A stretch of DNA of 64,000 nt from Fidelibacterota bacterium (lineage in GTDB: Bacteria > Fidelibacterota > UBA8477 > JABMPR01). The notes below the pieces were generated by a model, which saw only the letters and a program-made list of their open reading frames with translations, had not been told where the DNA came from and ran no database searches. Every line of letters starts with the position of its first letter. The first letter of the stretch is position 1. The DNA is taken from positions 1 through 64,000 of the forward strand of contig JAIPJF010000021.1 in NCBI GenBank assembly GCA_021734325.1, written 5' to 3'. Below, in pieces: positions 2,528 through 55,816 of the stretch. Both the position numbers and the translations under genes were made by a program.

Positions 2528-2631
2528 CCAGACATCAACATCCCTTCATTCACTGATTGATAAATAGCTCAAAGTTTCCCTGTCATTTCCCCTCATATCA
2601 AAGATATTTAGGAGTGAAGGAAAGGATTCCA

Positions 2632-3738: not shown

Positions 3739-3774
3739 TTGACCTTGTAAACATGATAAATGGGAGTGAAAAAA

Positions 3775-4206: not shown

Positions 4207-4291
4207 AAACAGCAAAGTTCTGCGCTATTTTACGCACTGCAATAGAAACGTCATGATAAAATGGACTGAAAAAGTGGACATCGACTAGCAA

Positions 4292-6349
4292 ATGTCAACA
4301 CGCGTTTATTTATTCACAGCTATCCTCCTTATATTCAGTTGTAAACCTGAAACTGGAAACCAGTTTTCCATTTCAAGCCCAAATGGTTCGATCACCCTTT
4401 CGCTGAACCTGGAAGCTGGCAAACCTACCTATTCTGTCATGGTCGATGGTGTCCCCCTGATTCGCCCTTCAGCTCTTGGCTATCAGTTACGGGGAATTCC
4501 AGATCTGGTGGGTCCCTTCTCCGTACGGCAAAAAGCGGAGAATGAGATCGAAGAGACCTGGTCACCGGTTTGGGGACAGGAGAAGCAGATCTATTCACAC
4601 TCAAACCAGCTAAAAGTTGAACTTGTGGAAAACCGTTCTCCAAACCGCAGCATGAATCTGTTTTTTCGTGTATTTGATGATGGAATCGGATTTCGCTATG
4701 AGATTCCCGATCAAGAGGGTCTAGATTCACTTTTCATCAGCTCTGAATTGACAGAATTTAATTTTGCTGAGAACGCAAATTGCTGGTGGATTCCTGCAGA
4801 CTATAACAGCTATGAAAAGGTGTATACCAGGAGCCTGCTTGGTGATCTGCTTGATTCGCTGCATACACCCTTGACCATGGAAACCCCCAAGGGACATTTC
4901 ATAAGCATCCATGAAGCCAATTTGACCAATTACCCAAGCATGACCCTGAAACCATCTGCAGACGATTCGTTAAAATTGATCTGCGATCTGGTTCCCTGGC
5001 CAGATGGAGATAAAGTTAAAGCCCAGGTACCCATGCTTTCTCCCTGGCGCACCATCATGATCGGAAGCGATGCCAGAGATCTTCTCGCATCCAGACTGAT
5101 ACTGAATCTGAATGAACCCAATCGCCTGGATGATGTTTCGTGGATCAAACCGATGAAATATATTGGCATCTGGTGGGGACTGCATATCGGCAAGGAAACC
5201 TGGGTGCAGGGAGAGCATCATGGAGCGACTACTGAAAATACGAAAAGGTATATCGATTTTGCTGCAGAGAACAGTATCCAGGGTGTCCTGGTAGAGGGCT
5301 GGAACCACGATTGGGAAAGATACGGTCAGGATAGGGCCTTTAAATTTACCCAGCCTTATGATGATTTTGATATTGCCGAAATCACGCGTTACGCAAAGCT
5401 TAAACATGTTTCGTTGATTGGGCACCATGAAACAGGGGGAGAAGCTCCCTATTATGATGAACAACTGGAGGATGCATTTGCCTTTTGCCGTAAATATGGA
5501 ATATCTGCCGTTAAAACTGGTTATGCCAGGACCAGCATAGAACCCATCGGCGAGACTCACCACGGACAATGGATGGTACAGCATTACCGTCGCGTGGTGG
5601 AAATGGCAGCGAAATATAAAGTTGCTCTCAACGTTCACGAACCGGTCAAACCGACAGGGCTCTCAAGGACCTGGCCCCATATGATGTCAAGGGAAGGGGC
5701 ACGAGGTATGGAATGGAATGCCTGGAGCGAGGGAAATCCTCCCAGCCATACCTGCATATTACCATTTACCAGATTGTTAGCAGGCCCCCTCGACTATACT
5801 CCGGGGATATTCGACCTCGAATTCAATCAATTCAAACCAGACAACAGGGTTCATACCACGCTGGCAAAACAATTGGCGCTCATGGTGGTCATTTACAGTC
5901 CCCTGCAAATGGCAGCTGATCTTATTGAAAATTATGAAGGGCAACCGGCTTTTCAGTTTGTTCGTGATTTGAATATTGACTGGGATGAGACACGCTATTT
6001 AAAAGCCGAGATCGGTGAACAAGTTGCCATTGCCCGTCGTCACGGAGAAGAATGGTTTTTGGGGGCAATCACCAATGAAAAAGAGCGTGATCTGCGCCTT
6101 CCCCTGGATGAGATCCTTGATTCTGTGATGGTAGCTGAATGTTATACGGATGCCGGCAATACCAACTGGGAGAGTAATCCCTATCCCATGCTTATAAAAT
6201 CATATCTTGCGTCACCATCAGATACACTCAGGGTCAAAATGGCTCCCGGGGGTGGTCTTGCCATCAGATTCAGACCGCTCCATGCGCATAAAGATAAATT
6301 TCCATCAATCACCGACCTTAGGCGTGATCAATTCGTTCAGAACTTATAG
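4292..6349 (+). CDS. Glycoside hydrolase family 97 lipoprotein (alpha-glucosidase-like)
   Basis: A 685-residue exported glycosidase. The N-terminus has a lipobox (LLIFSCKP, Cys about 17), so it is probably a lipoprotein. The order is GH97 N-terminal beta-sandwich (about 25-270), TIM barrel (about 280-570) and C-terminal sandwich. Barrel motifs match SusB-type members: VEGWNHDW, SAVKTGYA, NVHEPVKPTG and MSREGARGMEWNAW. In GH97, retaining enzymes carry a nucleophile Asp where inverting ones have Gly; here the matching segment reads KTGYA. With Glu in both VHEP and GMEW, that suggests an inverting alpha-glucosidase. This reading is from recalled family knowledge, not an alignment. It is followed 16 bases later by a GH20 gene, a two-gene saccharide-degrading unit without SusC/SusD genes. 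Confidence 0.9.
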   Translation: MSTRVYLFTAILLIFSCKPETGNQFSISSPNGSITLSLNLEAGKPTYSVMVDGVPLIRPSALGYQLRGIPDLVGPFSVRQKAENEIEETWSPVWGQEKQIYSHSNQLKVELVENRSPNRSMNLFFRVFDDGIGFRYEIPDQEGLDSLFISSELTEFNFAENANCWWIPADYNSYEKVYTRSLLGDLLDSLHTPLTMETPKGHFISIHEANLTNYPSMTLKPSADDSLKLICDLVPWPDGDKVKAQVPMLSPWRTIMIGSDARDLLASRLILNLNEPNRLDDVSWIKPMKYIGIWWGLHIGKETWVQGEHHGATTENTKRYIDFAAENSIQGVLVEGWNHDWERYGQDRAFKFTQPYDDFDIAEITRYAKLKHVSLIGHHETGGEAPYYDEQLEDAFAFCRKYGISAVKTGYARTSIEPIGETHHGQWMVQHYRRVVEMAAKYKVALNVHEPVKPTGLSRTWPHMMSREGARGMEWNAWSEGNPPSHTCILPFTRLLAGPLDYTPGIFDLEFNQFKPDNRVHTTLAKQLALMVVIYSPLQMAADLIENYEGQPAFQFVRDLNIDWDETRYLKAEIGEQVAIARRHGEEWFLGAITNEKERDLRLPLDEILDSVMVAECYTDAGNTNWESNPYPMLIKSYLASPSDTLRVKMAPGGGLAIRFRPLHAHKDKFPSITDLRRDQFVQNL

Positions 6350-6365
6350 ACAGAAACGGGGAAGT

Positions 6366-8711
6366 ATGGTGAGATTTTTAACCTTTAGTATTGGATTGAT
6401 TCTGAGCCTTGGAATACAATCCTGTGTTTCAACACCCAAACAGACAGAGTTGAACAAAGAAAGTGTGAATATGAATATAACCCCCAAACCACAATCAGTT
6501 GAAATACGTCCGGGTACATTTGTTTTCAAATCGGAGACCAGCCTGAAAATTTCCCCTGTGGTATCAAACAGGAACTTTTTTGAGAATTATCTGACTGCAT
6601 TGATTCCTGACTTGCAGGTCCTGGAACAGGGTAAAGCTGAGATAACCATCAATCTGAATTCTGATATGAATATTCCGGATGAGGGTTATCAGCTTGAAAT
6701 TGACCCCAAGGGTATTCAGATTACCGCAAGCGATGATCCCGGAGTGTTTTACGCCATCCAGTCTCTGCGCCAGCTCTTGCCGGTTGCAGTGGAGGGTGAT
6801 GGTCCAAATCTTGAGGGACATCAAATTCAAGCGGCGCTGATCAACGATTATCCTCGTTTTGAATGGCGGGGGATGCATTTGGATGTTTCCCGTCATTTTT
6901 TTCCAGTAGAATTTGTTAAACAGTATATCGATATGATCGCCCTTCATAAAATGAACACCTTCCACTGGCATCTTACAGATGACAACGGGTGGCGTCTTGA
7001 GATAAAAAAACATCCCAAGCTTACAGAGATTTGCGCCTGGCGGGTCGATCGTGAGAACGAGGATTGGAGAAGATGGTCTCCTATCCGTGAAGATGAACCA
7101 TCAAACTATGGTGGTTTCTACACTCAGGCGGAAGTACGGGATATCGTTGCCTATGCTGCAGATAGACAGATCAAGGTCATTCCAGAGATCGAAATGCCGG
7201 GACATGTCTCTGAAATATTCGCTGCCTATCCGGAACTATCCTGTCAGGGAGAGATCATCCCGGTCCGTCCGGGAAGTTATTGGCCGAACGAAGATATTTT
7301 TTGTGCTGGCAATGATTCTGTGTTTGCGTTTCTGGAAGACATAATTGATGAAGTGGTCGAGTTGTTTCCCGCAGAGTACATCCATATCGGCGGTGATGAG
7401 GCGTCCAAAACGCACTGGAAAACCTGTCCAAAGTGTCAAGCCCGGATCATAGCAGAAAACCTTAAAGATGAACATGAGTTGCAAAGCTGGTTCATCCAGA
7501 AGATGGAAAGATACATTTCAACGAAGGGGAAACGCATCATCGGTTGGGATGAAATTCTCGAAGGTGGACTGGCCCCCAATGCCACGGTGATGTCCTGGCG
7601 CGGAGAACGGGGCGGGATTGATGCTGCCAAAGCTGGCCACAATGTCATCATGACACCGACCTCGCATGTGTATTTCGATTACTATCAGGGTGATCCTGAA
7701 ACCGAGCCTCAGGCAATTGGCGGCTACGTCCCCCTAAAAAAAGTATATTTATACGAGCCAATCCCAGAAGAATTAAATCAGAATGAACACCAATATGTAT
7801 TGGGCACCCAGGCAAATCTCTGGACTGAATTTATAAAGACCCCTGATCATGCAGAATATATGGTGTTACCTCGAATGACTGCCTTGTCAGAGGTCCAATG
7901 GTCGGACAAGGGACAAAGGGATTGGGAAGATTTTCAACAGCGCTTACAGAGCCTTTTCCCGCGTTTTGATGCCCTCGGATGGAATTACAGCCAAGGAACT
8001 TTCCTGGTTGAGATCTTTCCAGGCAGAATCGATAATGAGGGAATGATTGAAGTTGAACTCACTTCAGAGCAACCGAACCTCGATATTCGTTTCACCAGAG
8101 ATGGATCTGTACCGCGTGCATCTTCAGAACACTATACTGAGAAGTTGCGTCTGAAGGAGGATGTTCAAGTAAGGGCAGCTCTTTTTGAGGGAAACAAACG
8201 AATGGGAAGGGTGATCCAGCGGGATTTTGCCTTTCATCGTGCAGTGGATGCCGGGACCTCCTATAAGTTTAAATATCATCCCCGCTATCAGGCAGGTGGT
8301 GACAGAGGACTGGTTGATGGCATTCTGGGCACTACGAATTTCCAGGATGGTTTCTGGCAGGGTTTTGAGGGCAATGATCTGGAATTGATTATTGATCTGG
8401 GCGGTACACAGGATGTATTCAGAACAGAGCTTAATTTTCTACAGTCCATCAATTCCTGGATATTTATGCCAGAGTACATTGAAGTTAGTCTTTCAGGGGA
8501 TGGAGAGAACTGGGAATTAATCAAACGAGTTGTGAATGAAGTACCTGAGACAAACGAGGTCGTCACTATTCAACGATTGACAGCCGATTTTCCAACCATG
8601 CAGACCAGATTTATCAAGGTCCTGGCCAAGAATCGAGGTGTTTGTCCGGGATGGCATCCAGGGGCAGGAAATAAGGCCTGGATCTTTTGCGATGAGGTGA
8701 TCGTGAAATAG
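6366..8711 (+). CDS. Glycoside hydrolase family 20 beta-N-acetylhexosaminidase (lipoprotein)
   Basis: Removes terminal beta-linked GlcNAc or GalNAc from chitin oligomers or glycans. I start at ATG 6366 (MVRFLTFSIGLILSLG), giving 781 residues and a lipobox (GIQSCVS); the longer frame from 6207 lies inside the GH97 gene. The order is GH20b domain (about 35-150), GH20 TIM barrel (about 155-510) with HWHLTDDNGWR and the catalytic pair D344-E345 in HIGGDEAS, then a chitobiase C-terminal beta-sandwich (SEQPNLDIRFTRDGS) and a discoidin-like domain (about 640-781). The substrate-assisted mechanism uses this Asp-Glu pair. It probably acts at the outer envelope together with the adjacent GH97. Confidence 0.93.
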   Translation: MVRFLTFSIGLILSLGIQSCVSTPKQTELNKESVNMNITPKPQSVEIRPGTFVFKSETSLKISPVVSNRNFFENYLTALIPDLQVLEQGKAEITINLNSDMNIPDEGYQLEIDPKGIQITASDDPGVFYAIQSLRQLLPVAVEGDGPNLEGHQIQAALINDYPRFEWRGMHLDVSRHFFPVEFVKQYIDMIALHKMNTFHWHLTDDNGWRLEIKKHPKLTEICAWRVDRENEDWRRWSPIREDEPSNYGGFYTQAEVRDIVAYAADRQIKVIPEIEMPGHVSEIFAAYPELSCQGEIIPVRPGSYWPNEDIFCAGNDSVFAFLEDIIDEVVELFPAEYIHIGGDEASKTHWKTCPKCQARIIAENLKDEHELQSWFIQKMERYISTKGKRIIGWDEILEGGLAPNATVMSWRGERGGIDAAKAGHNVIMTPTSHVYFDYYQGDPETEPQAIGGYVPLKKVYLYEPIPEELNQNEHQYVLGTQANLWTEFIKTPDHAEYMVLPRMTALSEVQWSDKGQRDWEDFQQRLQSLFPRFDALGWNYSQGTFLVEIFPGRIDNEGMIEVELTSEQPNLDIRFTRDGSVPRASSEHYTEKLRLKEDVQVRAALFEGNKRMGRVIQRDFAFHRAVDAGTSYKFKYHPRYQAGGDRGLVDGILGTTNFQDGFWQGFEGNDLELIIDLGGTQDVFRTELNFLQSINSWIFMPEYIEVSLSGDGENWELIKRVVNEVPETNEVVTIQRLTADFPTMQTRFIKVLAKNRGVCPGWHPGAGNKAWIFCDEVIVK

Positions 8712-42750: not shown

Positions 42751-42765
42751 AACAAATAATTTGTT
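42751..42765. promoter_or_regulatory. Palindrome AACAAAT-A-ATTTGTT
   Basis: A perfect 15-base palindrome 72-86 bases before the ATG at 42836. MerR regulators bind palindromes in promoter spacers. The preceding base extends it to GAACAAATAAT, which recurs at 59432-59442 upstream of the cytochrome b/c gene. Confidence 0.35.
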
Positions 42766-42835
42766 TACGCAACTACATCTCCTTTCTTTAAACGACAATT
42801 ATTATTTAAAAATTTGCAGAGATTTGGCTAAAAAT

Positions 42836-43390
42836 ATGGGAATCCAGGTCATTTGGAGTGATTCCCGCCCCTTTGGCATGCACTTTGTAAATACTGTATT
42901 TCAGAATACGGAAAATATATTGAAATTATCTCAACATAATACGAATCAGCCTGAGTGTCTGTCAGAAGAGACCCTATACTCGCCCCATGACGTGGCGACG
43001 ATGCTTAACCTCTCCGTGGAGACGCTTCGACTCTATGAGCGAGAAGGGCTTTTCGTCCCTTACAAATTGTCTTCTGGCCACCGGCGATTTACCAAGAGTG
43101 ATATCGAATGGATAGAGTGCATTCAGAAACAGATCCATGAGAACAAACTGAATTTTGCCGGCATTCGCTATTTGCTCTCCATGCTGCCCTGCCATGAGAT
43201 GAAAGATTGTTGTATGGAAGATTATAAAGCTTGTCCCGCAGGTGATAAAAGTTGTCGTCCATGCTGGGATTTCGAAGGTACGCCTTGTAGATTAAGGGGC
43301 GAAAACTGTCGGACTTGTGTTGTGTACCAACAAGTTCTAAACATTGATCACTTAAAAGAAATATTATCGGTGAAATTCAAATGCGAATAA
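42836..43390 (+). CDS. MerR-family regulator with Cys-rich C-terminal sensor
   Basis: A DNA-binding regulator. The MerR helix-turn-helix and wing are clear: LYSPHDVATMLNLSVETLRLYEREGLFVP, then SGHRRFTKSDIEWIECIQ. After the dimerisation region comes a 45-residue tail with about ten Cys (LPC, DCC, AC, SCRPC, TPC, NC, TC), far more than a metal-sensing MerR loop needs, so an iron-sulfur cluster or several metal ions are plausible. The start is uncertain: TTG 42761, ATG 42836 or TTG 42920; I chose the first ATG clear of the palindrome at 42751. The last ten bases overlap the start of the multiheme cytochrome gene, so regulator and cytochrome are coupled. It probably controls this gene set in response to redox state or metal. 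Confidence 0.8.
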   Translation: MGIQVIWSDSRPFGMHFVNTVFQNTENILKLSQHNTNQPECLSEETLYSPHDVATMLNLSVETLRLYEREGLFVPYKLSSGHRRFTKSDIEWIECIQKQIHENKLNFAGIRYLLSMLPCHEMKDCCMEDYKACPAGDKSCRPCWDFEGTPCRLRGENCRTCVVYQQVLNIDHLKEILSVKFKCE

Positions 43391-44934
43391 CAAAAAGATT
43401 TGTCCTGCTGGCTCTCGTATTCCCGAGCCTCTTGTTTGTTAGTTGTGATGCCATCAATCCCAAAGATGGCGATCTGGTCGATTTCAGCTGCGAAGGATGT
43501 CACACCAATGCAGCAGCACTCACTCGAATTATTTCCAGCTTGGATCTGGAGGTCGAGGCTGAAGAGAGTGCGGCCCCTGGCTGAGGTGGCGGAGCGGAGT
43601 CGTTGACTCTCAAGGACAAGGTCTATATTAAAATTAACGCGACAGCAAATATTACGTCATTTGCCGACATTGATCCCACCCATGCCAGCATCGGATGTAC
43701 CGGTTGTCATGGTGGTCTATCGCCAGTTGATGCCTCAGATGATACATCAGCCTATCGCGCAGCTCATGCTGGCGTGAGTCGCGATCCTTCAGCTATTGGC
43801 GAGGAAGGCTGTAGTGGTGGTCTCTGTCATGGGGACATCGTTCGCAGGAATGAAACCAGCCTACACAGCAATCTCTGGGGCGAAAAGGCCCATGTAGCTC
43901 GCAGAAATGGCTATGCAACATTTGAAAGCTGCCCGGCTGAGATCCAGGATGGTTTTTCAAAGGATTGTTCCAGCTGCCACACAACCTGTGGTCAGTGTCA
44001 CATCAGCCGACCCAATGCCGCCGGTGGTGGTTTCATGGAAAATCGTCTGGGATACAGTCATAAATTCATCAGGACACCCAGTGAAGAGAATGTTTGTACA
44101 GCCTGCCACGGATCCCGTGTAGGTGATGACTGGAATGCCAATCAGGAACGTGTTCCCGGTAATGTCCCAGATGCACACAACCAGAATGGATTTAGCTGTC
44201 TGGATTGCCACGAAGAGGATTTTCATGGCAACGGTCCCTCAGACGCTGAATACACATCCCGATACGCTGTGCAGGATATTCCACAATGCACTAATTGTCA
44301 TCAGGGTGATCATGATGACAATGCTTTTCATGCTGAACATTGGCCAAACGCCGATGCAAGTGATGGTGCTGACCTGGCCTGCTTCGTGTGTCATTCACAA
44401 CAATACAATAATTGCAATACCTGTCATGCAGGGACCTGGAAAAGTGAGTATGAAGCCGACAATTCGGGTGAATACAGAGTTTATCCTCAATTCAAATTGG
44501 GGAAGAATCCCTATTATGGCGTAGCGGATCATCCACACACCGACGCTAAGTGGATCACAGTGAGACACGTTCCTGTCTCTCCTGATGCATTTAAAAATTG
44601 GAATGTCGATCCCTGGGATATTGAGACCATGCCCGATACACGGAATATGGAAACCTGGAAGTACTCCAGTCCTCACAATATCCAGCGCTGGACAAGCAGA
44701 ACTCTAGTGGACTCGACCTGGCAAGATTCAGCTGGATACACGACAGGCACCTGTAATGACAATTGCCACATGCATGGGTCTTTCGGGCCTGGAACGATGC
44801 AGAATGTTGGTATATACTTAACGGACAACGACATGTTGCATGACATCACGAACGATAACCTGAGCAATGAGATTGAAGCCAATGCTTTGACCAGCCTGGG
44901 CACTCAAAGCGGAAGTTGTGCAGTATGTCATTAG
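43381..44934 (+). CDS. Multiheme c-type cytochrome lipoprotein with in-frame UGA (candidate selenoprotein)
   Basis: One reading frame of 517 codons, interrupted only by TGA at 43582-43584 (codon 68). The N-terminal part has a lipoprotein signal (LLFVSC, Cys 22) and a first heme site CEGCH. After the TGA, the same frame continues through GGGAESL and CTGCH, CSSCH, CGQCH, CTACH, CLDCH, CTNCH, CFVCH, CNTCH, a final CAVCH next to the stop, plus variant sites CSGGLCH and CNDNCH: ten CXXCH and two variants. The downstream part alone has no signal peptide and could not receive heme, so it must be translated with the start. A SECIS-like hairpin follows the TGA, suggesting selenocysteine; a sequencing error, natural nonsense mutation or readthrough are the alternatives. 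It is coupled to the MerR gene and followed by a rhodanese lipoprotein. A role in extracellular electron transfer is likely. Confidence 0.75.
43596..43610 (+). promoter_or_regulatory. SECIS-like hairpin after in-frame UGA
   Basis: GAGTC-GTT-GACTC (43597-43609), extended by a G-U pair (43596/43610). The stem begins 11 bases after the TGA, and the apical loop begins 17 bases after it with G first. From memory, bacterial SECIS elements need an apical loop about 16-37 bases downstream, a 4-16 bp upper stem and G within the first two loop bases; all hold. Confidence 0.5.
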
Positions 44935-44977: not shown

Positions 44978-45949
44978 ATGAAACTTGATTGGAGACTAGT
45001 ACTGGTAATGGTGCTTTCATTAGGGCTTATGGTAAGCTGTGAGAGTACAGATGATGAAGAAACAGCAGCCACAGCATTTGAGACCTTGAGTAAATACATG
45101 GTTGACAATGATATGGATGCCACAACCGTTGTTGCAGGTTGGACTATTGGTGCCTCGACACTTTCCGGAAATGAAGCGAACTATTTCGTAGTAGATATTC
45201 GTTCAGCCGATGTGTATGCCACTGGTCATATTCCTGGTGCAGTTAACTGTGCCAGAACAGACATATTAACGACAGTTGAAGATGGAAATACCAATAATCT
45301 TCCTGTTGTTGTGACCTGTTATTCTGGCCAATCTGCGACTCTTGCTGTCGTAGCTTTACGCTTAAGTGGGTACACAGACGCCAAGTCGCTTTTATGGGGA
45401 ATGAGTGGCTGGGCCACGCAATTTGACTCATGGTCAAGCAAAGTTGATAGTGTCGCAAAGGGAAATACAAACTGGGTGACAACTGCTGCCCCTACCCATC
45501 TTTCTGGCAATGCTGAGCCGGAGATTGTAACTGAGTATACGGATGGTAGTGCAATTCTGGCTGAACGTGTGGAACTTATGTTAGCGTCAACAAAAAGCGT
45601 TGCGGGCGCGGATGTGTTAGCTGCACCAGAAAATTATGAGATCATTAACTTCTGGGGTGCAACAGATTATGATCACTATGGTCATATTGCAGGTGCCTAT
45701 CAGGTTACTCCAGATCCAAATGAATTAACAATTGCGAATGATGGATTAGATATTCTTGATCCTGCGCAGACCATTGTAACCTATTGCTGGACTGGTCAAA
45801 CTTCGGGCATGGTGACTTCATGGTTGCGAGTCCTTGGATATGATGCTACCAGTTTGTCAAATGGTGCAAACAGCATGATTTACCATAAACTCGAAGGTCA
45901 TAAATGGGGAGCTTTAGCTACCAGTTATGATATGGAAACGGGTTTATAA
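44978..45949 (+). CDS. Tandem rhodanese-like lipoprotein
   Basis: A 323-residue lipoprotein (lipobox LGLMVSCES, Cys about 21) behind a strong AAGGAGGGG ribosome site. It contains two rhodanese folds: residues about 60-160 (YFVVDIRSADVYATGHIPGAVN, then Cys in VTCYSGQSATLAV) and about 210-310 (NFWGATDYDHYGHIAGA, then Cys in VTYCWTGQTSGMV). Both keep a loop Cys, but the loops read C(Y/W)(S/T)GQ(S/T) instead of CRxGxR, so thiosulfate specificity is doubtful. Rhodanese lipoproteins next to outer-membrane cytochromes are known from Geobacter-type electron conduits (ext clusters). It probably handles sulfur or selenium species or acts as a redox partner outside the cytoplasm. It is 43 bases after the cytochrome gene and ends at a terminator. 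Confidence 0.8.
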   Translation: MKLDWRLVLVMVLSLGLMVSCESTDDEETAATAFETLSKYMVDNDMDATTVVAGWTIGASTLSGNEANYFVVDIRSADVYATGHIPGAVNCARTDILTTVEDGNTNNLPVVVTCYSGQSATLAVVALRLSGYTDAKSLLWGMSGWATQFDSWSSKVDSVAKGNTNWVTTAAPTHLSGNAEPEIVTEYTDGSAILAERVELMLASTKSVAGADVLAAPENYEIINFWGATDYDHYGHIAGAYQVTPDPNELTIANDGLDILDPAQTIVTYCWTGQTSGMVTSWLRVLGYDATSLSNGANSMIYHKLEGHKWGALATSYDMETGL

Positions 45950-46122: not shown

Positions 46123-47142
46123 ATGTTAAAAATGATTCTCCGACCAAGATTCACCTTTCTCCTGTCCTTGATTTTCATGCTCGCACAGCCACTTCATAGT
46201 GATCAGGCTGATTCTGAAAATTGCTCCCTTTGCCACGATCTTGCATCTCTGGTATTAATGGGGGACACAGGCTCGTTCAGGAATTTAGAGATTTCAAGCA
46301 ATTCTTATAGACATTCAACACATAGAAATGTGATTTGCCGGGATTGTCATACCGATATCAATACATTCCCACACCCGACAACGGTTCAAAAAGTTGATTG
46401 CGCAAAAAATTGTCACATCACAAAACCTTTCGCATTGACTGGCTATTCACATGTGGATCAATCAGAAGCACATGCCATCAGTGCCCACGGGAAAAATCCA
46501 AAATATTCAGACCAGAAAAATGCCAGTAAGCCTGATTGCAAATATTGCCATGACAATACCTTTAGAAATGTCATTGAGGATGAAGTGTTGGCCGCTAACA
46601 GCAAACACTGTGGTCGCTGCCATGAGGATGCTGGTCTGGCCGGGGTAATTTTGCACGTAAGTTCACATTCCGGACATCGTTCAGCTTCTGCATCTGTTAA
46701 GGTCGTTGAATTATGTTCCTCCTGTCATGCTGATGAAAGTCGTATGAAAAATTTTGATGTAAACCTGACTCAGGTCAGCGGATATGAAAATCAATTTCAT
46801 GGCAAAGCCTTAAAGCGAGGAATGGACAATGTTGCCAATTGTATGGATTGCCACCGCAATCACCTGAATTTACCGGCAGATGATCCAAATTCCAGTATTC
46901 ACCCCAACAACATACAAATGACCTGTAGCGCCAATACTTACTGCCATAGCAATGCCACAGCCAAATTTACAGCAGCAGCCATCCACTCGAAACCGACACC
47001 TTCAAACAATCCCATCGCATTTTATGTTGAGTGGGGCTTTATCCTTTTGACTGCAGGCACCATGGCGATGCTATTCGCCCACATCTTTCTTGATTTTGGC
47101 CGATGGGTTGGGGACGCGTGGATGCGGAGGAGAAAACAATGA
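46123..47142 (+). CDS. Membrane-anchored multiheme cytochrome c (about 8 heme sites)
   Basis: A 339-residue protein with a signal peptide (to LHSDQ, about 27), a periplasmic heme domain and one C-terminal membrane helix (FILLTAGTMAMLFAHIF) followed by a basic tail. Heme sites: CSLCH, CRDCH, CKYCH, CGRCH, CSSCH and CMDCH, plus CAKNCH (CX3CH) and CSANTYCH (CX5CH), the last uncertain. The design matches the N-terminal part of CbcL-type proteins, and the next gene supplies the missing cytochrome b part: a split version of the fused protein encoded at 57397-59343. It likely oxidises menaquinol with that partner and passes electrons to the periplasm. First gene of an eight-gene operon; the stop overlaps the next start (ATGA). 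Confidence 0.88.
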   Translation: MLKMILRPRFTFLLSLIFMLAQPLHSDQADSENCSLCHDLASLVLMGDTGSFRNLEISSNSYRHSTHRNVICRDCHTDINTFPHPTTVQKVDCAKNCHITKPFALTGYSHVDQSEAHAISAHGKNPKYSDQKNASKPDCKYCHDNTFRNVIEDEVLAANSKHCGRCHEDAGLAGVILHVSSHSGHRSASASVKVVELCSSCHADESRMKNFDVNLTQVSGYENQFHGKALKRGMDNVANCMDCHRNHLNLPADDPNSSIHPNNIQMTCSANTYCHSNATAKFTAAAIHSKPTPSNNPIAFYVEWGFILLTAGTMAMLFAHIFLDFGRWVGDAWMRRRKQ

Positions 47143-47831
47143 GTCGTGAATATACTCGTTTCAGCGTAAATCAGCGTCTACAACACTTTTTCATGTTTGT
47201 CCCCTTCATCATTCTTGTTATCACGGGTTTTCCTATCAAGTATCCAGAGAGTAGTTTTGGGAGCTTTGTTTTTGCAGCCATTGGCGGAATTGAAACGGCA
47301 AGAAGTGTACACCGTTTTGCGGCTGCCATCATGATCCTGGATTTTGTGTTTCACGTCGCTTATGTTGCCTACAATATTCTGGTGAATAGGGCACCGCTCT
47401 CAAAATTATATCTATTACCAGGCAAGAAGGATGCTCAGGATATTCTCAAGAATTTGAAGTATTTTCTTTTCCTCAGTGATGAACGCCCGAGATTTCATAA
47501 ATTCTCATATATAGAAAAATTTGACTATTGGGCCGTTTTCTGGGGTATGTTCATCATGGCTGGAAGTGGGATCATTTTGTGGTTTCCAGTGGAATTCAGC
47601 CGTATTGTACCAGGTGTGGTCATTCAGATCGCCTATATCGCCCATAGTGATGAAGCACTGCTCGCGTTCCTGGCCATAATAATATGGCATTTTTATAATG
47701 TCCACTTCAACCCCCGGGTTTGGCCGGCAAATAAGGTCTGGTATAAAGGGACCCTGACTGAAGAGGAGATGGAACACGAACATCCCATGGAACTGGAAGA
47801 GATAAAAGAGAAAGAAAAGGAAGAAAGATGA
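47139..47831 (+). CDS. Cytochrome b subunit (FdnI/HydC/CbcL-type)
   Basis: A 230-residue integral inner-membrane protein with four main hydrophobic helices. Likely heme b ligands: His in QRLQHFFMF (helix 1), two His in SVHRFAAAIMILDFVFHVAY (helix 2) and His in IIWHFYNVHF (last helix), the arrangement of diheme quinol-oxidising subunits. The long charged tail (EEEMEHEHPMELEEIKEKEK) is unusual. The ATG at 47139 overlaps the previous stop; the longer frame from 47103 is inside the upstream gene. With the multiheme c protein before it, it should form a menaquinol:cytochrome c oxidoreductase feeding the conduit. Confidence 0.88.
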   Translation: MSREYTRFSVNQRLQHFFMFVPFIILVITGFPIKYPESSFGSFVFAAIGGIETARSVHRFAAAIMILDFVFHVAYVAYNILVNRAPLSKLYLLPGKKDAQDILKNLKYFLFLSDERPRFHKFSYIEKFDYWAVFWGMFIMAGSGIILWFPVEFSRIVPGVVIQIAYIAHSDEALLAFLAIIIWHFYNVHFNPRVWPANKVWYKGTLTEEEMEHEHPMELEEIKEKEKEER

Positions 47832-48625
47832 AGCGATTCCCGAAAATCTTATATGGCCTGGGGGTCCTGTGCCTGGGTATCTTCCTTTCCATTTCCCTGA
47901 TCAATAAAGCCACCTCACACGACACTGCCCATGTCGAAGTTGCACCAGCAGACACTCTGTTCCCTGATTATGTCAAGATGTTCAATACCTATTATAAACA
48001 ATTTGAGAACCGGAAAGGGCATTTTCATCAAACGGCTGAGCGAACGATGTTACCAATGGAAAAACAGGAAAATTGTTTAACCTGTCATTCCTTGTGGCCA
48101 CATCAGAAAGATAATCGGACAAGGGCCTTCAATAATCAGCATTCCCGCTATATGACCTGTATGGTTTGTCATATAGATGAACAGGTTGGTCGTCCCGTGA
48201 AATTTGAATGGTATGACTTTGGCGTAGATAACTCCATTACCCGTGAAGGGCCGTTCGGTATTGAAAGAATTGCAGATAAAGGTCTTAGTGCAGAGGAGAA
48301 TTTTATTACCAGGATAGTTCCGATTATTGTTGACGGGGATATTAAAAGTAGATTGTTCGCCACATACGAAACGCCTGTTTATCGTCAATTTCGTGAGGAT
48401 TCCCGAGCCGGTGTGACTGTCAATGCCCAGGAAGTACGCAAACAGGCAGAAGCTTTGCTGGGAAAAACGCCGCTCACGTGCTCCCAATGTCATGCTGAAG
48501 CATCTCAATTTCCCTGGGCGGAGTTGGGATTTGCAGGAATGCGGGCAGATGAAATGTTACACTCGGCCGTGGTCGGTATGGTAGAAAAATACGAGAATTT
48601 TTATTTTCCAGCTGTTTTTGAATAA
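47828..48625 (+). CDS. Triheme c-type cytochrome, membrane-anchored
   Basis: A 265-residue protein with an N-terminal hydrophobic anchor (LYGLGVLCLGIFLSISLI) and no clear cleavage site. Three CXXCH sites are present: CLTCH and CMVCH close together (about 82-115) and CSQCH (about 218). The rest carries no known domain, and the 100 residues between the second and third sites are unusually free of Cys. It is likely a periplasmic shuttle or connector between the quinol-oxidising pair and the outer-membrane cytochromes. The start overlaps the previous stop (ATGA). Confidence 0.82.
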   Translation: MKRFPKILYGLGVLCLGIFLSISLINKATSHDTAHVEVAPADTLFPDYVKMFNTYYKQFENRKGHFHQTAERTMLPMEKQENCLTCHSLWPHQKDNRTRAFNNQHSRYMTCMVCHIDEQVGRPVKFEWYDFGVDNSITREGPFGIERIADKGLSAEENFITRIVPIIVDGDIKSRLFATYETPVYRQFREDSRAGVTVNAQEVRKQAEALLGKTPLTCSQCHAEASQFPWAELGFAGMRADEMLHSAVVGMVEKYENFYFPAVFE

Positions 48626-48632
48626 GGATTGC

Positions 48633-49514
48633 ATGAAGCGCAATATACAATATAAAATATTATTAATACTAAACATGTGTTTGGTATTAATACCTATCGG
48701 GTTTGCGCAGGAAATAGAATTTTCGCAAGTACTGAGTGTAAAAGCTGATTTTAATTTCCCAACGGACATCTGTGGCAATGAAAATGGAGACGCATTTGTC
48801 CTTGATGCCTTGAATGACCGCGTGGTAAAAATCGCGGCATCCGGTCGCAGCAGTGAAATAAAGCCACAGCGAGATACTTTCTATAAGGCGGTCGGTATTG
48901 CCTGGATCGATAGTGAACTCTGGATTGCTGATACGCCTCGTTCAAGACTGATAAATCTGGCACTAAACGGCCGGATAAAGCAGATCATTGAATTAGGGCA
49001 CGATATCGAACCAGTTGACCTGACAGGGATCAACGGGAATCTTGTAGTCACCGACCGTAAAAAGCATAGCATAACGGTACTTGATAAGCAGGGAACTGAG
49101 AAATATCACTGGGGAAAACGAGGAGATAAAGTAGGGGAGTTCATTAACCCTGGTTTTATTACCACTGGCCCTGAGAATAATATGATTGTCTCTGATATTC
49201 TAAACCGCAGGGTGATGTCCTATTCTCCAAGCGGTAGATTCCCCCAAATGATTGTCAAATCTGGTGTCGAAAGCGGCCAGATACTGAGACCAAAGGGTGT
49301 TGCCCTGGATAGTGAAAAGCGTGTCTGGGTGGTGGATGGATATACTGGATCGCTCCAGGCATTTTCAGTATCAGGAAAGTTCCAGGCTCTTGCCTACAGT
49401 CAGGGAAAGGTGATCAGACTTTTAACCCCCATGGGTATCTGGATTGATAAAAAGGATCGCATCTGGATCGTCGAATCCAATGCGAATACTGTGAGTCTCT
49501 GGCAGAAAAAATGA
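48633..49514 (+). CDS. Secreted NHL-repeat beta-propeller protein
   Basis: About 293 residues. ATG 48633 has AAGGA upstream; TTG 48618 is less likely. A signal peptide (to GFAQE) precedes six-bladed NHL-type repeats: DICGNENGDAFVLDALNDRVVKI, IAWIDSELWIADTPRSRLI, GNLVVTDRKKHSITVLD, MIVSDILNRRVMSYSP, RVWVVDGYTGSLQAF and RIWIVESNANTVSLW. There are no heme sites. NHL propellers commonly act as protein-binding scaffolds and are often found in electron-conduit operons, where they may position cytochromes. The stop overlaps the next start (ATGATG). Confidence 0.82.
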   Translation: MKRNIQYKILLILNMCLVLIPIGFAQEIEFSQVLSVKADFNFPTDICGNENGDAFVLDALNDRVVKIAASGRSSEIKPQRDTFYKAVGIAWIDSELWIADTPRSRLINLALNGRIKQIIELGHDIEPVDLTGINGNLVVTDRKKHSITVLDKQGTEKYHWGKRGDKVGEFINPGFITTGPENNMIVSDILNRRVMSYSPSGRFPQMIVKSGVESGQILRPKGVALDSEKRVWVVDGYTGSLQAFSVSGKFQALAYSQGKVIRLLTPMGIWIDKKDRIWIVESNANTVSLWQKK

Positions 49515-51589
49515 TGAATATTCACACCAGATCATCTGCTCTGTTATTCCTGTTAATCCTGGTTCCCGGTCTTTGCTTTGCTCAACCCAGGAGCAGAGAT
49601 CGTCAGTTAAGCTTTGATTGTGTCGTCTGTCATGTTGGTTGGCATGACAATATTGATAAAGCCAAATCCCTTCTACCCGAACCAAAGGCACCCATCCAGA
49701 TCGAGGGCCTGCCTGCCCATGTGCCTGTATTGGACATGTGTGTTACCTGTCATGATGGAACCGTAGAGGATTCACGAGAAGTTTTTTCATCCAACAATCA
49801 CCAATTGAAGGGTATGGATCCTGGTAAAATTTCAGTTCGTGATTTGCCGCTGGATAAAAATAATCAGATCTATTGTGGTACCTGTCACACACCACATTCC
49901 TTGAAACCTGACCAGCCTGGTGGTCTGGCACCCTTCATGCGAGTCGACCCAAAAAATTCATCACTCTGTCTTAATTGTCACAGTGAACAGGCGAAAGACC
50001 ACTTTAATCACCCCATCCACATCAAAGTGCAGGCCAATCATAAAATGCCACCGGATACCTACTTTGGCGAAAATAATACCATTGAATGCATGACCTGTCA
50101 TCCCATTCATGGAAAACAGGGAACGATTGGAGTTACTGGTGATGATCGAACAGAGCTATGTTCTGCATGTCACGAGGACTATTTCAGTGTTGCATCAACA
50201 GACCATGACCTGACCCAGATGACGAAAAATAGATCAGGCAGAATTGGTCCCAGTTTTGAGGACAGAGATGTCTGTGCTTCATGTCACCAGAGCCACAATG
50301 GGAAAGGTGAACACATGTGGGCCATGGATCTTAATCAGACAGATGGAGCGAATGGCTACTGTATTGGCTGTCATAGCGAGACTGGACTGGGCAAATCCAA
50401 ACTGTATATCCATTCGGGCCATAAAGTAAGCGGAGCGAAGATTCGAAAGAATGTACCTGCACTGGGAATCAGCATAAATGATCAAATTCTCTGTACAAGC
50501 TGCCATGATCCTCATCAATGGGAGTTTTCAGGGAAGCATGCGGTGACCGAGGCCAATGAAGAAGGTACAGAATATACGTCATTTTTAAGACTCCCTGATG
50601 ATGCTCAGGGACAATTATGCTTAGCCTGCCATTCAGAAAAATCAAGCATCAGAGACTCTGATCACAGTGTTGTCCGGGAAGGTTTTCAGCAGCATTTTCG
50701 CGGTGAAAGTAAATTCAGGGGTCAGTGCTCTGCCTGTCATGAAACTCACGGGCTGGCAGGATATACAGGCGAAGAGAACGTCCCCAAGGGTGACCTGGCC
50801 AGGGAACTTTGTGAATCTTGTCATTCAGAGGCTCATTTCCCGACTTCTGTTGGTGGCTTCGACCATCCTTTAGGTGCTGCACTTCAAGCGGGAATTGGGT
50901 TGCCCGGGTACAATGGAACGCTCAGTTGCATCACTTGCCATGATCCCCATACCTGGGGTCAGGTCAGGGAGAAATCACCAAATGTCGATCTGGATGGTAC
51001 AGATGCAAATTCATTTCTCCGTATCTCGAATTGGCCTGAACCAAACCTCTGTCTTTCCTGCCATGGAGAGCAGAAAGGGGTCCGGAATACTGATCATGAC
51101 CTCACAGATGATAATCATAGTTCATGCTCTTTCTGTCATTCAGCCCACAATGCACAAGCTGAATATGGAATCCTTAGATATTGGGTGGAATCAAAAGGCA
51201 GGTCGTATAATGAGAGATTCTGCTTTGCCTGTCACCAGGAGGGTGCCATTGGAGAAAAAAGGATCCCCAGGGCCTGGGAACATCCCCATGAATATGGAAC
51301 AGTAGCTCTTACAGAACGCGGTGATGGGAAGTGGATCGATTTCCCCCTGTTCAGTGAGGAAAAACCACAGGAAAATTTTGGATTCATAGACTGCTTTACC
51401 TGTCATGACCCACATAAATGGTCATTCAATGATCAGATTAAACCCAGTTCGGGAAATGATGAAGGTGACTTTATGTCATCATTTCTGAGAAATCCCAGCT
51501 CAGAAACCTTATGTACAGATTGTCATGGTATTGGTGCACTCTGGAAGTATAACTATTACCATGACCCGGTTAAGAGGAAACGTTACTAA
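49511..51589 (+). CDS. Large multiheme c-type cytochrome (18 CXXCH)
   Basis: A 692-residue exported protein (signal peptide to LCFAQ, about 25). Eighteen CXXCH sites are spread evenly, many as doubled-motif units (CxxCHDPHxW...L), e.g. CITCHDPHTW and CFTCHDPHKW, plus extra His between them for axial ligation. This regular paralogous-repeat layout is common in outer-membrane cytochromes that form heme wires. No lipobox is evident, so it may be periplasmic, lodged in the barrel, or secreted. It is the largest heme carrier in the operon and, together with the barrel at 52605 and the 12-heme protein at 54203, a candidate core of a porin-cytochrome complex. Confidence 0.92.
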   Translation: MMNIHTRSSALLFLLILVPGLCFAQPRSRDRQLSFDCVVCHVGWHDNIDKAKSLLPEPKAPIQIEGLPAHVPVLDMCVTCHDGTVEDSREVFSSNNHQLKGMDPGKISVRDLPLDKNNQIYCGTCHTPHSLKPDQPGGLAPFMRVDPKNSSLCLNCHSEQAKDHFNHPIHIKVQANHKMPPDTYFGENNTIECMTCHPIHGKQGTIGVTGDDRTELCSACHEDYFSVASTDHDLTQMTKNRSGRIGPSFEDRDVCASCHQSHNGKGEHMWAMDLNQTDGANGYCIGCHSETGLGKSKLYIHSGHKVSGAKIRKNVPALGISINDQILCTSCHDPHQWEFSGKHAVTEANEEGTEYTSFLRLPDDAQGQLCLACHSEKSSIRDSDHSVVREGFQQHFRGESKFRGQCSACHETHGLAGYTGEENVPKGDLARELCESCHSEAHFPTSVGGFDHPLGAALQAGIGLPGYNGTLSCITCHDPHTWGQVREKSPNVDLDGTDANSFLRISNWPEPNLCLSCHGEQKGVRNTDHDLTDDNHSSCSFCHSAHNAQAEYGILRYWVESKGRSYNERFCFACHQEGAIGEKRIPRAWEHPHEYGTVALTERGDGKWIDFPLFSEEKPQENFGFIDCFTCHDPHKWSFNDQIKPSSGNDEGDFMSSFLRNPSSETLCTDCHGIGALWKYNYYHDPVKRKRY

Positions 51590-52599
51590 TGACTAAAAAT
51601 TATTTTCAAATGATTATCCCTCTCGTTCTGATTATTATGACTTCTTGTGCACACAGGCAGGCGGATCTAAAACCACTCACCTTTCCTGCAGACATGGACC
51701 AGCCCTTTCTCAGCTTAACGAATATTGTTGGTGAAGAAGTGAAAACTTCCGACAGCTTTATCGGTGGCCTGGCATTAAAAGTGAAGGGTCCCCAGCAACT
51801 AATTTCAATGGCAAGACCAACTGCAGTTGCCATTTACGGTGAAAACATACTTTTTGTGGTTGATGCTGATGCAGGTGAGATATTAAAGCTCCAATATGAA
51901 CAGGGTCAGTTGAAGACAGTTATGAGCTTCGGAGATGAATGGTTGTCGGCTCCCCTCGGGATAGCTATTTGGGATGACATCATCTACATATCAGATTCTC
52001 AAACAGGTCAGATCCACAGATTCTCTCTTGATTTGGAATACCTGAATTCCCTTACGATACAGGATCTTCAAAGACCGGGACAGCTAAAGCTCAATACGAT
52101 CAGGAATGAATTGCTGGTGGTTGATACAAAAGCCCACCAAATTCTGGCCGTTAATGCTGAAGGTGATGTGAAGGCGACCATTCAGAATGCCGGTAAAAGG
52201 AAAGCGGTCCTAAATGGCCCCCTGGCTCTGGATATTGCCCCTGATGGAAAATTAGTCGTGCTGGATGCTTTAACACGCAGAGTTGAATTCTACTCGCAAG
52301 ATTATGCTTACGTGGGAGGGTTTGGAGGTTATGACCACGTACCTGGCAGTTTTTCCAACCCGAGGGGTCTGGCAGTTTCGTCAGACGGATACATTTTTGT
52401 CTCTGATGCTGCTTTTGGCAACATCCAGATCTTTGACAGTCAAGGTGCGCTCCTCTACTTTTTTGGCAAGAATGGCACGGGGAGAGGCGAATTTTTGATG
52501 CCAGGTGCACTCTATTTTGACTCTTTAAATAATCTATATGTGATCGATCAATACAATAACCGGATTCAAGTCTTCAACTACGCGGTGCAGGGAGGTTGA
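51589..52599 (+). CDS. NHL-repeat beta-propeller lipoprotein
   Basis: A 336-residue lipoprotein (LIIMTSCAH, Cys about 20). NHL-type blades run from about 75 to 330: IYGENILFVVDADAGEILKL, IWDDIIYISDSQTGQIHRF, RNELLVVDTKAHQIL, PDGKLVVLDALTRRVEFY, DGYIFVSDAAFGNIQIFD and LNNLYVIDQYNNRIQVF. It differs from the propeller at 48633 by its lipid anchor. The first base is the last base of the previous stop (TAATG). It probably lies on the outer membrane as a scaffold or cap for the multiheme proteins (inference). Confidence 0.82.
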   Translation: MTKNYFQMIIPLVLIIMTSCAHRQADLKPLTFPADMDQPFLSLTNIVGEEVKTSDSFIGGLALKVKGPQQLISMARPTAVAIYGENILFVVDADAGEILKLQYEQGQLKTVMSFGDEWLSAPLGIAIWDDIIYISDSQTGQIHRFSLDLEYLNSLTIQDLQRPGQLKLNTIRNELLVVDTKAHQILAVNAEGDVKATIQNAGKRKAVLNGPLALDIAPDGKLVVLDALTRRVEFYSQDYAYVGGFGGYDHVPGSFSNPRGLAVSSDGYIFVSDAAFGNIQIFDSQGALLYFFGKNGTGRGEFLMPGALYFDSLNNLYVIDQYNNRIQVFNYAVQGG

Positions 52600-52604
52600 T
52601 CGTG

Positions 52605-54206
52605 ATGAATAAAATCATTGGTTCATTGTTTCTATTTCTGAGTGTTCTTTATGCTGCTCCATTTCAGCAGGCAGGTTTTATTGAAAGTAAAATGAGTATC
52701 TCACTGGACACGCTTCAGGATGGAGGAAGTTCATTTATTCACCAGGAAAGGATCAACTGGGGTTTTGAAGGAACTCAGGATTTCGTAAATCTTGATTATC
52801 GGATAAATATTGGTGGTGTGCTTCGGGGTAATACAGCTTTTTCCATGACCCAGTTTACGCCGGAGTATGGCTTTCGTGCCAATGCACAGCCTCATCGAAC
52901 CATGGACCTGGCACTGTTCTCTTATTCCAGATTGCGCAATCCCATGCAAATTTTATCCGACTCTCTGCAGTACAAGGAATTCGTCCATGGCCTGAAACTC
53001 GGGACTCAAATATCCGCGACCACCAGATTATCAGTCGCTACCGGTCTCAAATCTCAGGATATCACTCACCGCGATACAATCAGCAGTAGCCAGCAATTTA
53101 TTCAACTTGGTCTGGACCAGAGAATTGCCGGCATGCAGATCCGATTTTCCGGTGAAACAGATATGTGGGAACGCGATGGCATGGGAAGCAGACAGAATAC
53201 GCTCCTCGCATTACAGTGGTATGGAAGTCCGGCTGCCGCCTTGCGCTGGAATGCATCCAATTCACTTTACCTTACCGATGACTATAGCTTTTGGCGCATC
53301 TCCCATCGCATGAATTATGATCTCTCACAGAGACAAAAAATCTGGGTCAATTATAACCAGGGTGATTTTGCGTATGGGGCGCAATCCTTAATTCGCCAGA
53401 CTTATGACCTGAGATATCGATTCCAATGGAAACCGGCCATGGGGATAGACCTTGCAGTGAAAGGTAATCGGGTAAGTGTGGCGGATTCGATTGATATTTT
53501 TCATTGGCGATCCTATGGCGTCAGTACCTTCTGGAACAAAGGGCGGTCTGGATTTGCCCGGGGAAATTTGGATGTGGGCTTCAAAGAGTCTTTCCTCTAT
53601 GGAAAAGGGCTGGATCTGCTGGTCAATAGCAGTGAATCCAAACAAGTTTATCGTTCAAACGCGCTTGCAGTCCAGTTGAGGGATGATCTCAGTGCTGAAT
53701 ATTTTCAAAGAATGGACGAAACTGACGATCCACGATATGATATTCGCCACAAATTCAGGATAACAACAGAATTCCTCCCAGAAAACAAATTCCGTATCGG
53801 AAATCACATAAAAGTACATAATCATTTTGGCTCCGACCTGGATTTCTCCCCTGATACCTTGAGAAATGCCGTCATTGATGAACTTTATGTCAAAAGCTTT
53901 AGCCAAAGATCTCAGTTCTCTGTTTTCTACAGGACCGTATTCGAGCTGGTGGAACCGGATAATGATCTCCAATTCAATTTGAATACGCGTTACTTCAGGC
54001 AGCTTTCACGTACACTTAGCTGCAATTTTATGAGCTTATATAGATTCCAATCAGAGAAGTATCCTGATTATTTATGGCTGAGCGCTGCCCTGAGATATAA
54101 TACAAGTCTATTTAGTTATGCAATTGAACTTCAAAGCGGTGGTGCTCCTGATATGGCATTTAAGCAAGATTCCCAGATTTGGATGCGGTTTGTGAGGCAA
54201 ATATGA
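52605..54206 (+). CDS. Outer-membrane beta-barrel of the electron conduit
   Basis: About 533 residues. The GGAGG site at 52591 supports ATG 52605, or GTG 52602. After a signal peptide (to LYAAPFQQ) the protein shows more than twenty alternating strands with aromatic girdles and ends IWMRFVRQI. There are no heme motifs. Position between the 18-heme gene and the 12-heme gene is that of the porin in porin-cytochrome complexes (MtrB or OmbB analogues), although I see no specific MtrB motif; it is a non-homologous or highly diverged barrel. The stop overlaps the next start (ATGA). Confidence 0.78.
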   Translation: MNKIIGSLFLFLSVLYAAPFQQAGFIESKMSISLDTLQDGGSSFIHQERINWGFEGTQDFVNLDYRINIGGVLRGNTAFSMTQFTPEYGFRANAQPHRTMDLALFSYSRLRNPMQILSDSLQYKEFVHGLKLGTQISATTRLSVATGLKSQDITHRDTISSSQQFIQLGLDQRIAGMQIRFSGETDMWERDGMGSRQNTLLALQWYGSPAAALRWNASNSLYLTDDYSFWRISHRMNYDLSQRQKIWVNYNQGDFAYGAQSLIRQTYDLRYRFQWKPAMGIDLAVKGNRVSVADSIDIFHWRSYGVSTFWNKGRSGFARGNLDVGFKESFLYGKGLDLLVNSSESKQVYRSNALAVQLRDDLSAEYFQRMDETDDPRYDIRHKFRITTEFLPENKFRIGNHIKVHNHFGSDLDFSPDTLRNAVIDELYVKSFSQRSQFSVFYRTVFELVEPDNDLQFNLNTRYFRQLSRTLSCNFMSLYRFQSEKYPDYLWLSAALRYNTSLFSYAIELQSGGAPDMAFKQDSQIWMRFVRQI

Positions 54207-55816
54207 GACTGATTAAGATCTTCATGTCATCACTGACGATGACACTGGTGTTCGGACAGAGCACAGCTGATTTAGGTGATAAGAGCAAGGTTGCCTTTAC
54301 TCCACACAACTTCAGTGGCATCGAGACTGTTGGCGGTGACGGTGTGGTCTACGATTTCACCCTCTGCCGTCAATGTCACACACCATCAAAAATGGCTCCG
54401 ATTGAACCACTCTGGTATCGCAAGGAAGCAGTGAACGTATTCGAGGTAAAAAACCTTGTTCAGGGGCAGGACGATGAGGTGTTGCCCTCAGATGCAGCCA
54501 GCAGGAATTGTTTATTCTGTCATGATGGTGGCATCGCTCCCGGATTTCCCCATCACAGTTTCAATGGGGATAAGCAAGTAGCTCTTAATGGTGGTATGGA
54601 ACAATCCATACCCAATCAAAATCTGCATCTTTTTAAATTTCAGAAGCAGAGTGCCCAGACACATCCACCGGAGTCTGAGAGTCAATTACGTCTGAATAAA
54701 TATGGTCAGATAAGTTGTACGACCTGTCATGATCCCCACAATAATGAGTATGGAAATTTCCTGCGGGTGGAGGCTCAAAATTCACAGATCTGCTTTGAGT
54801 GTCATGAAATGGCGAACTGGGAGCTTTCGACCCACGGAAATCCGGCAGATCCAAAATTCTCCGGTTTGGGTGATAATGCCTGTGCTACCTGTCATGATAT
54901 TCACAGCGTACCTGCAGAGGAATCTCTATTAAAAACCGATCAAAACACCCTCTGTCTGACCTGTCACGATGGAATGAAAAATTCGTCGGAAGAAATCGCT
55001 GCCAACGCAGATTTAGCCTCTGTTTTTGACAAGACCTTTATTCATCCAATTCGGGTGAATGCATCAGGGAATCGTCATACAGATATGGATGCCTGGAGCG
55101 CAGGGATTGCTGATGATCGTGCTGTTGCCTGCAGTGACTGTCATAATCCCCATGCAACTTCTGATCAATCTTTGTCCCCCTTTCTGGATGGATCACAGCT
55201 CTATGTTGACGGGGTAGATAACCGTGGGTTTCCCAAGGCTTTTGTAGATTATGAATACGAGACCTGCTATAAATGTCATGGCATGAATCAGAATGCTGGT
55301 TTGGGGAGAGATGTGGGTAGACTATTTGCCCGGACGAACATGAGTTATCACCCTGTCGAAGCACCTGGCAACAATCCCTATGTTCCAAGCTTGAAAACTG
55401 AATGGAGCGAGCAATCCATGTTGAGCTGTACGGATTGCCATGGTAATGATGATCCACTGGGAGCTCAGGGTCCCCACGGCTCTAATGTCCCCCATATTTT
55501 AAAGGCCAGTTTCGCTGATTTTCCTTTCTCAAGTGTTGAAGAGAACAAATTATGCTTCCGTTGTCACGAGGAACAACGCGTGGTCCAGAGCAACGGATTT
55601 AAATACCATCAACTCCACATTCAAGATGCCGGGTATTCCTGCTCTGCATGCCACAACCCCCATGGGAGCATAGAATATCCTGGATTAATGGATTTGAGTC
55701 AGGGCTTTATTCAACCTTTAAATAATGGCGTTCTTGAAATTGTTCAGACAGAACCTGGTCATGGCTATTGCAGCTTAAAATGTCATGACAAGGCTCATCC
55801 AACACAAACCTATTGA
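54203..55816 (+). CDS. Multiheme c-type cytochrome (12 heme sites)
   Basis: A 537-residue exported protein with a short signal peptide (MRLIKIFMSSLTMTLVFGQ). Eleven CXXCH sites (CRQCH, CLFCH, CTTCH, CFECH, CATCH, CLTCH, CSDCH, CYKCH, CTDCH, CFRCH, CSACH) and a last CSLKCH (CX3CH). DPHNNEYG, NPHATSD and NPHGSIE next to several sites resemble the repeats in the 18-heme protein, so the two may be related by duplication. No lipobox is visible. It completes the operon; a 9-bp hairpin follows. Whether it sits inside or outside the barrel is unknown. Confidence 0.9.
   Translation: MRLIKIFMSSLTMTLVFGQSTADLGDKSKVAFTPHNFSGIETVGGDGVVYDFTLCRQCHTPSKMAPIEPLWYRKEAVNVFEVKNLVQGQDDEVLPSDAASRNCLFCHDGGIAPGFPHHSFNGDKQVALNGGMEQSIPNQNLHLFKFQKQSAQTHPPESESQLRLNKYGQISCTTCHDPHNNEYGNFLRVEAQNSQICFECHEMANWELSTHGNPADPKFSGLGDNACATCHDIHSVPAEESLLKTDQNTLCLTCHDGMKNSSEEIAANADLASVFDKTFIHPIRVNASGNRHTDMDAWSAGIADDRAVACSDCHNPHATSDQSLSPFLDGSQLYVDGVDNRGFPKAFVDYEYETCYKCHGMNQNAGLGRDVGRLFARTNMSYHPVEAPGNNPYVPSLKTEWSEQSMLSCTDCHGNDDPLGAQGPHGSNVPHILKASFADFPFSSVEENKLCFRCHEEQRVVQSNGFKYHQLHIQDAGYSCSACHNPHGSIEYPGLMDLSQGFIQPLNNGVLEIVQTEPGHGYCSLKCHDKAHPTQTY

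Follow-up and report, generated by a model that had tools for sequence, protein, structure and literature searches.

A candidate selenocysteine-containing multiheme cytochrome family of Neomarinimicrobiota and its putative rhodanese partner

Introduction

Few cases of selenocysteine (Sec) in multiheme cytochromes are known, so far without an explanation for its presence. One of these is ExtKL (GSU2937-2936) of Geobacter, which has been predicted to be a Sec-containing cytochrome since 2007 (PMC1914089). The corresponding gene cluster, extHIJKLMNOPQS, also codes for the rhodanese lipoprotein ExtH, the barrel or porin ExtI, and a cytochrome b (PMC6148476, PMC5877670). Deletion of extI impairs the reduction of selenite and tellurite (PMC5877670). 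ExtKL is one of 119 selenoprotein families of prokaryotes catalogued in 2026, which also include an octaheme cytochrome and a protein of the GSU2204 type; none of them is like the cytochrome described here (PMC13188914).

The locus reported in this study was found in a 64,000-nucleotide stretch of DNA (contig JAIPJF010000021.1), hereafter called the window. It resembles the ExtKL system in that it codes for a multiheme cytochrome with a predicted Sec at an in-frame UGA codon, and in that genes for a rhodanese lipoprotein, a putative porin, and a cytochrome b are located nearby (PMC1914089, PMC5877670, PMC6148476). However, ExtKL carries five hemes before its Sec residue and the rest of the protein has no similarity to known proteins (PMC1914089), whereas the cytochrome in the window has one heme motif before this position and nine CXXCH motifs after it. 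In addition, ExtKL is a pentaheme protein described as periplasmic (PMC6148476), whereas the cytochrome in the window carries a presumed lipidation cysteine. Identity with ExtKL was rejected because model NF040886 yields no match to the cytochrome.

The cytochrome was also compared with other known systems. ExtM (NF040943), which is encoded in the same Geobacter operon and is not listed as a selenoprotein, weakly matches 3 of 18 family members (best value 1.3e-9), and the match begins past the Sec segment. The L129 protein scores 34.4 bits against a cut-off of 800 and the window protein is unmatched, which does not place the family in ExtM. The tetrathionate reductase family octaheme cytochrome (TIGR04315) is likewise a Sec-containing multiheme cytochrome (PMC13188914), and no match to it was present among our NCBIfam results. 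Outer-membrane cytochromes similar to MtrC and MtrF are also multiheme lipoproteins, and residues 142-280 of the window protein give a borderline match to the corresponding model PF22113 (4.1e-7), with 30.1 bits against a gathering cut-off of 30. The Shewanella Mtr system is not known to include Sec or a rhodanese.

Results and discussion

A multiheme cytochrome gene with an in-frame UGA codon

The cytochrome gene and its neighbors are listed in Table 1. A sequence-only reading of the window had noted that the cytochrome frame is open except for a TGA at codon 68, and that the coding regions on both sides appear intact. Our examination of the frame bears this out, with one CXXCH motif located 5' of the TGA and nine located 3', plus one CX4CH and one CX3CH motif. 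A survey of TGA-split frames in the window (open for at least 60 codons before the TGA and at least 100 after) identified this as the only case in a real gene. The only two further long frames of this kind run antisense to real genes and were dismissed as noise.

Table 1. Features of the locus (coordinates are those of the window).
Feature	Coordinates	Strand	Remarks
MerR-type regulator, Cys-rich C-terminal tail	42761..43390	+	Overlaps cytochrome start; upstream of most homologues
Predicted selenocysteine multiheme c-type cytochrome lipoprotein	43381..44934	+	517 aa; 10 CXXCH + CX4CH + CX3CH; presumed lipidation Cys22
In-frame UGA, putative selenocysteine 68, motif PGUGGG	43582..43584	+	One column in 35 homologous genes; Cys in L058
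SECIS-type hairpin GGAGUC-GUU-GACUCU	43596..43610	+	Co-variation; 12 nt past UGA (11 with outer G-U pair)
Two-domain rhodanese lipoprotein, putative partner of the Sec cytochrome	44978..45949	+	Pfam PF00581; both catalytic Cys conserved; co-occurs with Sec
Multiheme c-type cytochrome (Cytochrome_C7-like), C-terminal membrane helix	46123..47142	+	
b561-type membrane cytochrome b	47103..47831	+	
c-type cytochrome	47828..48625	+	
NHL-repeat protein	48618..49514	+	
Large multiheme cytochrome (paired CXXCH, MtrC/MtrF-like domain)	49511..51589	+	
NHL-repeat lipoprotein	51589..52599	+	
Putative outer-membrane barrel	52596..54206	+	Inferred from sequence; no Pfam or NCBIfam match
Multiheme cytochrome (paired CXXCH)	54179..55816	+	

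An AlphaFold2 model of the cytochrome built from a 42-row alignment has a mean pLDDT of 71.0, with residues 31-50, around the first heme site, predicted well. An alignment with only 18 rows gave a poor model (pLDDT 37.9). In the 42-row model, residues 60-69 have values below 50, suggesting that Sec68 probably resides on a flexible loop, rich in Gly, that connects the first heme to the main heme domain. Searches of the PDB by sequence, and by fold using this model, revealed no matching entry.

Distribution of the cytochrome family

A profile search, which covered Neomarinimicrobiota, identified the family in 42 of 245 genomes distributed across 18 genera. Beyond the phylum, we relied on a pattern scan for close relatives, whose named hits are Candidatus Neomarinimicrobiota MAGs, and on a plasmid search, which yielded nothing. 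All genomes that carry the family are MAGs. Among 42 homologues, Cys22 is invariant, as are most heme motifs. The family is not represented in NCBIfam, and a literature search combining Neomarinimicrobiota with selenocysteine found no paper. These cytochromes appear to constitute a separate selenoprotein family, which is widespread in this phylum.

TGA occupies a single alignment column in 35 genes. The next codon specifies Gly in all 35, and a Gly-Gly pair follows in 34, giving motifs such as PGUGGG, GGGUGG, and GEGUGG. Because the window derives from a single MAG, its TGA could in principle reflect a sequencing error or a decaying pseudogene. This is exceedingly improbable, given that the identical TGA is present in 35 genes from different MAGs, that both flanks are in frame, and that the heme motifs are conserved. 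A second Sec subfamily, carrying the GEGUGG motif and preceded by a rhodanese gene, is found in the genus of the window's genome (L129, L130, and L131). In two genomes (L132 in G009 and L133 in G011), the contigs both stop near codon 57 of the cytochrome, just 5' of the TGA.

The expectation that homologues carry either UGA or a Cys codon at this position was borne out in part. The aligned TGA codons and a single Cys replacement (L058, PGCGGE) agree with it, but some copies carry neither residue. The column is occupied by His in L056 and by Asp in L124, and the entire Sec segment is missing from L102, L103, L104, L110, L127, and the second copies in L059 and L060. A tree of the family requires six changes between Sec and non-Sec states, at least five of them on supported branches. 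Copies without Sec or Cys also do not have the rhodanese partner described below, and thus the absence looks like a loss of function.

A co-varying hairpin downstream of the UGA codon

The earlier reading had also identified a hairpin, GAGTC-GTT-GACTC, and its description of both the sequence and the spacing from the TGA proved exact. The stem is formed by nucleotides 43597-43601 and 43605-43609, which flank a loop at 43602-43604, and an optional G-U pair at 43596/43610 extends the helix. RNAalifold favored another, poorly co-varying pairing for a short alignment of this region, and therefore the named hairpin was tested directly. A search of Rfam with the cytochrome gene gave no match.

Strong evidence for co-variation supports the six-pair stem. 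Among 33 distinct sequences, 88.9% of the positions are paired compared with 70.6% after shuffling, and the co-variation score is 0.495 versus 0.166 (sd 0.023), a value reached in none of 500 shuffles. There are 35 double-compensated cells, and versions of the stem that were slid along the alignment score far lower. Resampling of synonymous codons gives only 50% pairing and a co-variation score of 0.118, and none of 1000 runs reached the observed values. Thus, the protein sequence does not account for the hairpin. Furthermore, when 5297 hairpin windows were scored across a codon alignment of the whole gene, the top three were variants of this post-UGA hairpin.

The GUU loop is invariant. In L056 and L124, where Sec has been lost, three of the six pairs are left, and the Cys copy L058 keeps all six, two of them as G-U pairs. 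A divergent Sec copy (L113 in G146, approximately 6200-6260) has the motif STUGD and two extra codons. Inspection by eye revealed a different hairpin past its TGA, TTCCTGA-GGT-TCAGGAA, located slightly further on.

Selenium machinery of the genome

The genome that contains the window is a MAG of 2.93 Mb in 37 contigs and is 84% complete. The sequence-only reading had proposed a search for selA, selB, selC, and selD, and all four are found: selA and selB, which are located close together, a tRNA-Sec gene with the anticodon TCA, and selD. The selD gene (G000:C24:43738-44658, L063) has an in-frame TGA of its own within the motif AAGUAGK, and so its product is itself a predicted selenoprotein. The selD TGA is followed 12 bases on by GGTCC-AGG-GGACC, a hairpin with the same geometry as that of the cytochrome gene. 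Three other genomes with the Sec cytochrome (G013, G081, and G221; 70-86% complete) have no selA match above the cut-off.

UGA is an ordinary stop codon elsewhere in the window, as the earlier reading had maintained, and the stop codons of the genes that end at 12835, 47831, and 49514 are TGA. With this usage, and with a TTG start available at 43603, the UGA could be a true stop that separates a short one-heme lipoprotein from a downstream cytochrome translated from an internal start. We consider this arrangement very unlikely. The UGA and its surrounding residues are conserved in one frame in 35 genes, three orthologues have Cys, His, or Asp codons at this site, the nucleotide co-variation goes beyond what the protein sequence demands, and the genome carries Sec machinery. 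The recurrence of the TGA in one frame led us to reject the ordinary-stop and pseudogene interpretations. Decoding of UGA68 as selenocysteine is strongly supported by these sequence features and is almost certain. The initial proposal of a candidate Sec cytochrome is now supported by the Sec machinery, the aligned TGA codons, and the co-varying hairpin.

A rhodanese lipoprotein that tracks with selenocysteine

At Sec loci, the cytochrome gene adjoins a gene for a two-domain rhodanese lipoprotein, which is located downstream in nearly all cases and upstream in L129-L131. In the window, the PF00581 domains of this protein include catalytic Cys loops. Phylum-wide, 34 of the 35 genomes that carry a Sec copy have a rhodanese of the same family, either full or cut by a contig end. 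The lone exception is G021, in which the Sec gene itself is cut by a contig end. At the same threshold, the rhodanese is found in none of the six genomes that carry only non-Sec copies (G002, G019, G072, G073, G076, and G125). Fisher's test gives 1.6e-6 for this association, uncorrected for kinship, and common descent contributes in part to what is a statistical link. selA is retained in five of the six genomes that carry only non-Sec copies, and thus selenium use was not simply lost. Among the remaining genomes with this rhodanese, G014, G024, and G077 have it at a contig end, G007 has only a fragment of the cytochrome, and G043 is described below.

Gene order points in the same direction. 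No rhodanese is found near the non-Sec loci L056, L124, L102, L104, and L110. At the Cys locus L058 a rhodanese is present and has lost its second domain. The barrel gene directly follows the cytochrome in L104 and L102, whereas the rhodanese is located between these genes in Sec loci such as L106. The L104 operon is equivalent to that of L106 minus Sec and minus the rhodanese. The Sec-less second copies (L059/L060 and L127) were left out of the count of rhodanese losses, since they either accompany a Sec copy as paralogues or are located at a contig break. Co-occurrence and synteny support the new finding that Sec and the adjacent rhodanese appear to be gained and lost together. In L116 (G152), a TAA at about 8146 splits the rhodanese gene beside an intact Sec cytochrome, which could be an error or early decay.

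A possible chalcogen-redox module

We consider it fairly probable that the Sec cytochrome and the rhodanese constitute a chalcogen-redox module that operates as follows. SelB and tRNA-Sec would decode UGA68 at the downstream SECIS hairpin to yield a lipid-anchored c-type cytochrome with approximately 12 hemes. The neighboring rhodanese lipoprotein would hold sulfane sulfur (or Se or Te) as a Cys persulfide, and the Sec68 selenolate might exchange the chalcogen with it while the heme chain supplies or removes electrons for this exchange. The pair would serve as a redox module for polysulfide or thiosulfate, or for selenite or tellurite, tied to the operon's cytochrome b and multiheme conduit, wherein the downstream b-type cytochrome and multiheme genes would link the pair to the membrane. 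These two groups of compounds are the leading substrate candidates, and selenite and tellurite are included because their reduction is impaired by the extI deletion in Geobacter (PMC5877670). The MerR-type regulator could be a sensor of metal, metalloid, or redox state.

Sec might instead be decoded for some purpose other than chalcogen transfer, with the rhodanese being a separate member of the operon. The residue could serve as a heme or metal ligand, form a diselenide or selenosulfide cross-link, or act as a peroxide-reducing or redox-protective site. The Gly-rich, flexible nature of its segment and the lack of a nearby partner Cys fit such roles. However, several lineages have gained or lost Sec and the rhodanese jointly and kept the barrel, the MerR regulator, and the cytochromes. 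We regard another role as a lesser but still serious possibility.

The retention of Sec only where the rhodanese is also retained is a clue to the role of Sec and leads to a testable two-protein mechanism. This mechanism would tie a need for selenium to the redox chemistry of sulfur or metalloids in low-oxygen waters. The family is found in many genera of this abundant and as yet uncultured marine phylum, and gene callers that end genes at UGA would truncate these cytochromes. A broader proposal, which we offer tentatively, is that Neomarinimicrobiota and Geobacter (ExtH/ExtKL) independently evolved, on different cytochromes, an extracytoplasmic couple in which Sec takes sulfane sulfur (or Se or Te) from a rhodanese lipoprotein and heme electrons reduce or oxidize it. 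If true, these separate origins would provide a general rule that accounts for the uptake of Sec by electron-conduit cytochromes.

Rhodanese loci without the cytochrome

Like ExtH and ExtI of Geobacter, members of the rhodanese family adjoin ExtI-like porins at two loci (L136 and L137), although the ExtI matches, at 63 and 53 bits, are below the cut-off of 150, and the models that match the rhodanese do not include ExtH. L137, a second rhodanese locus in G018, carries no cytochrome and has the porin gene adjacent. L136 (G043, 1419-8628) has no Sec cytochrome and forms a sulfur island that codes for three rhodaneses, a YeeE-type sulfur transporter, a DsrE-like protein, and an FAD oxidoreductase in addition to the porin.
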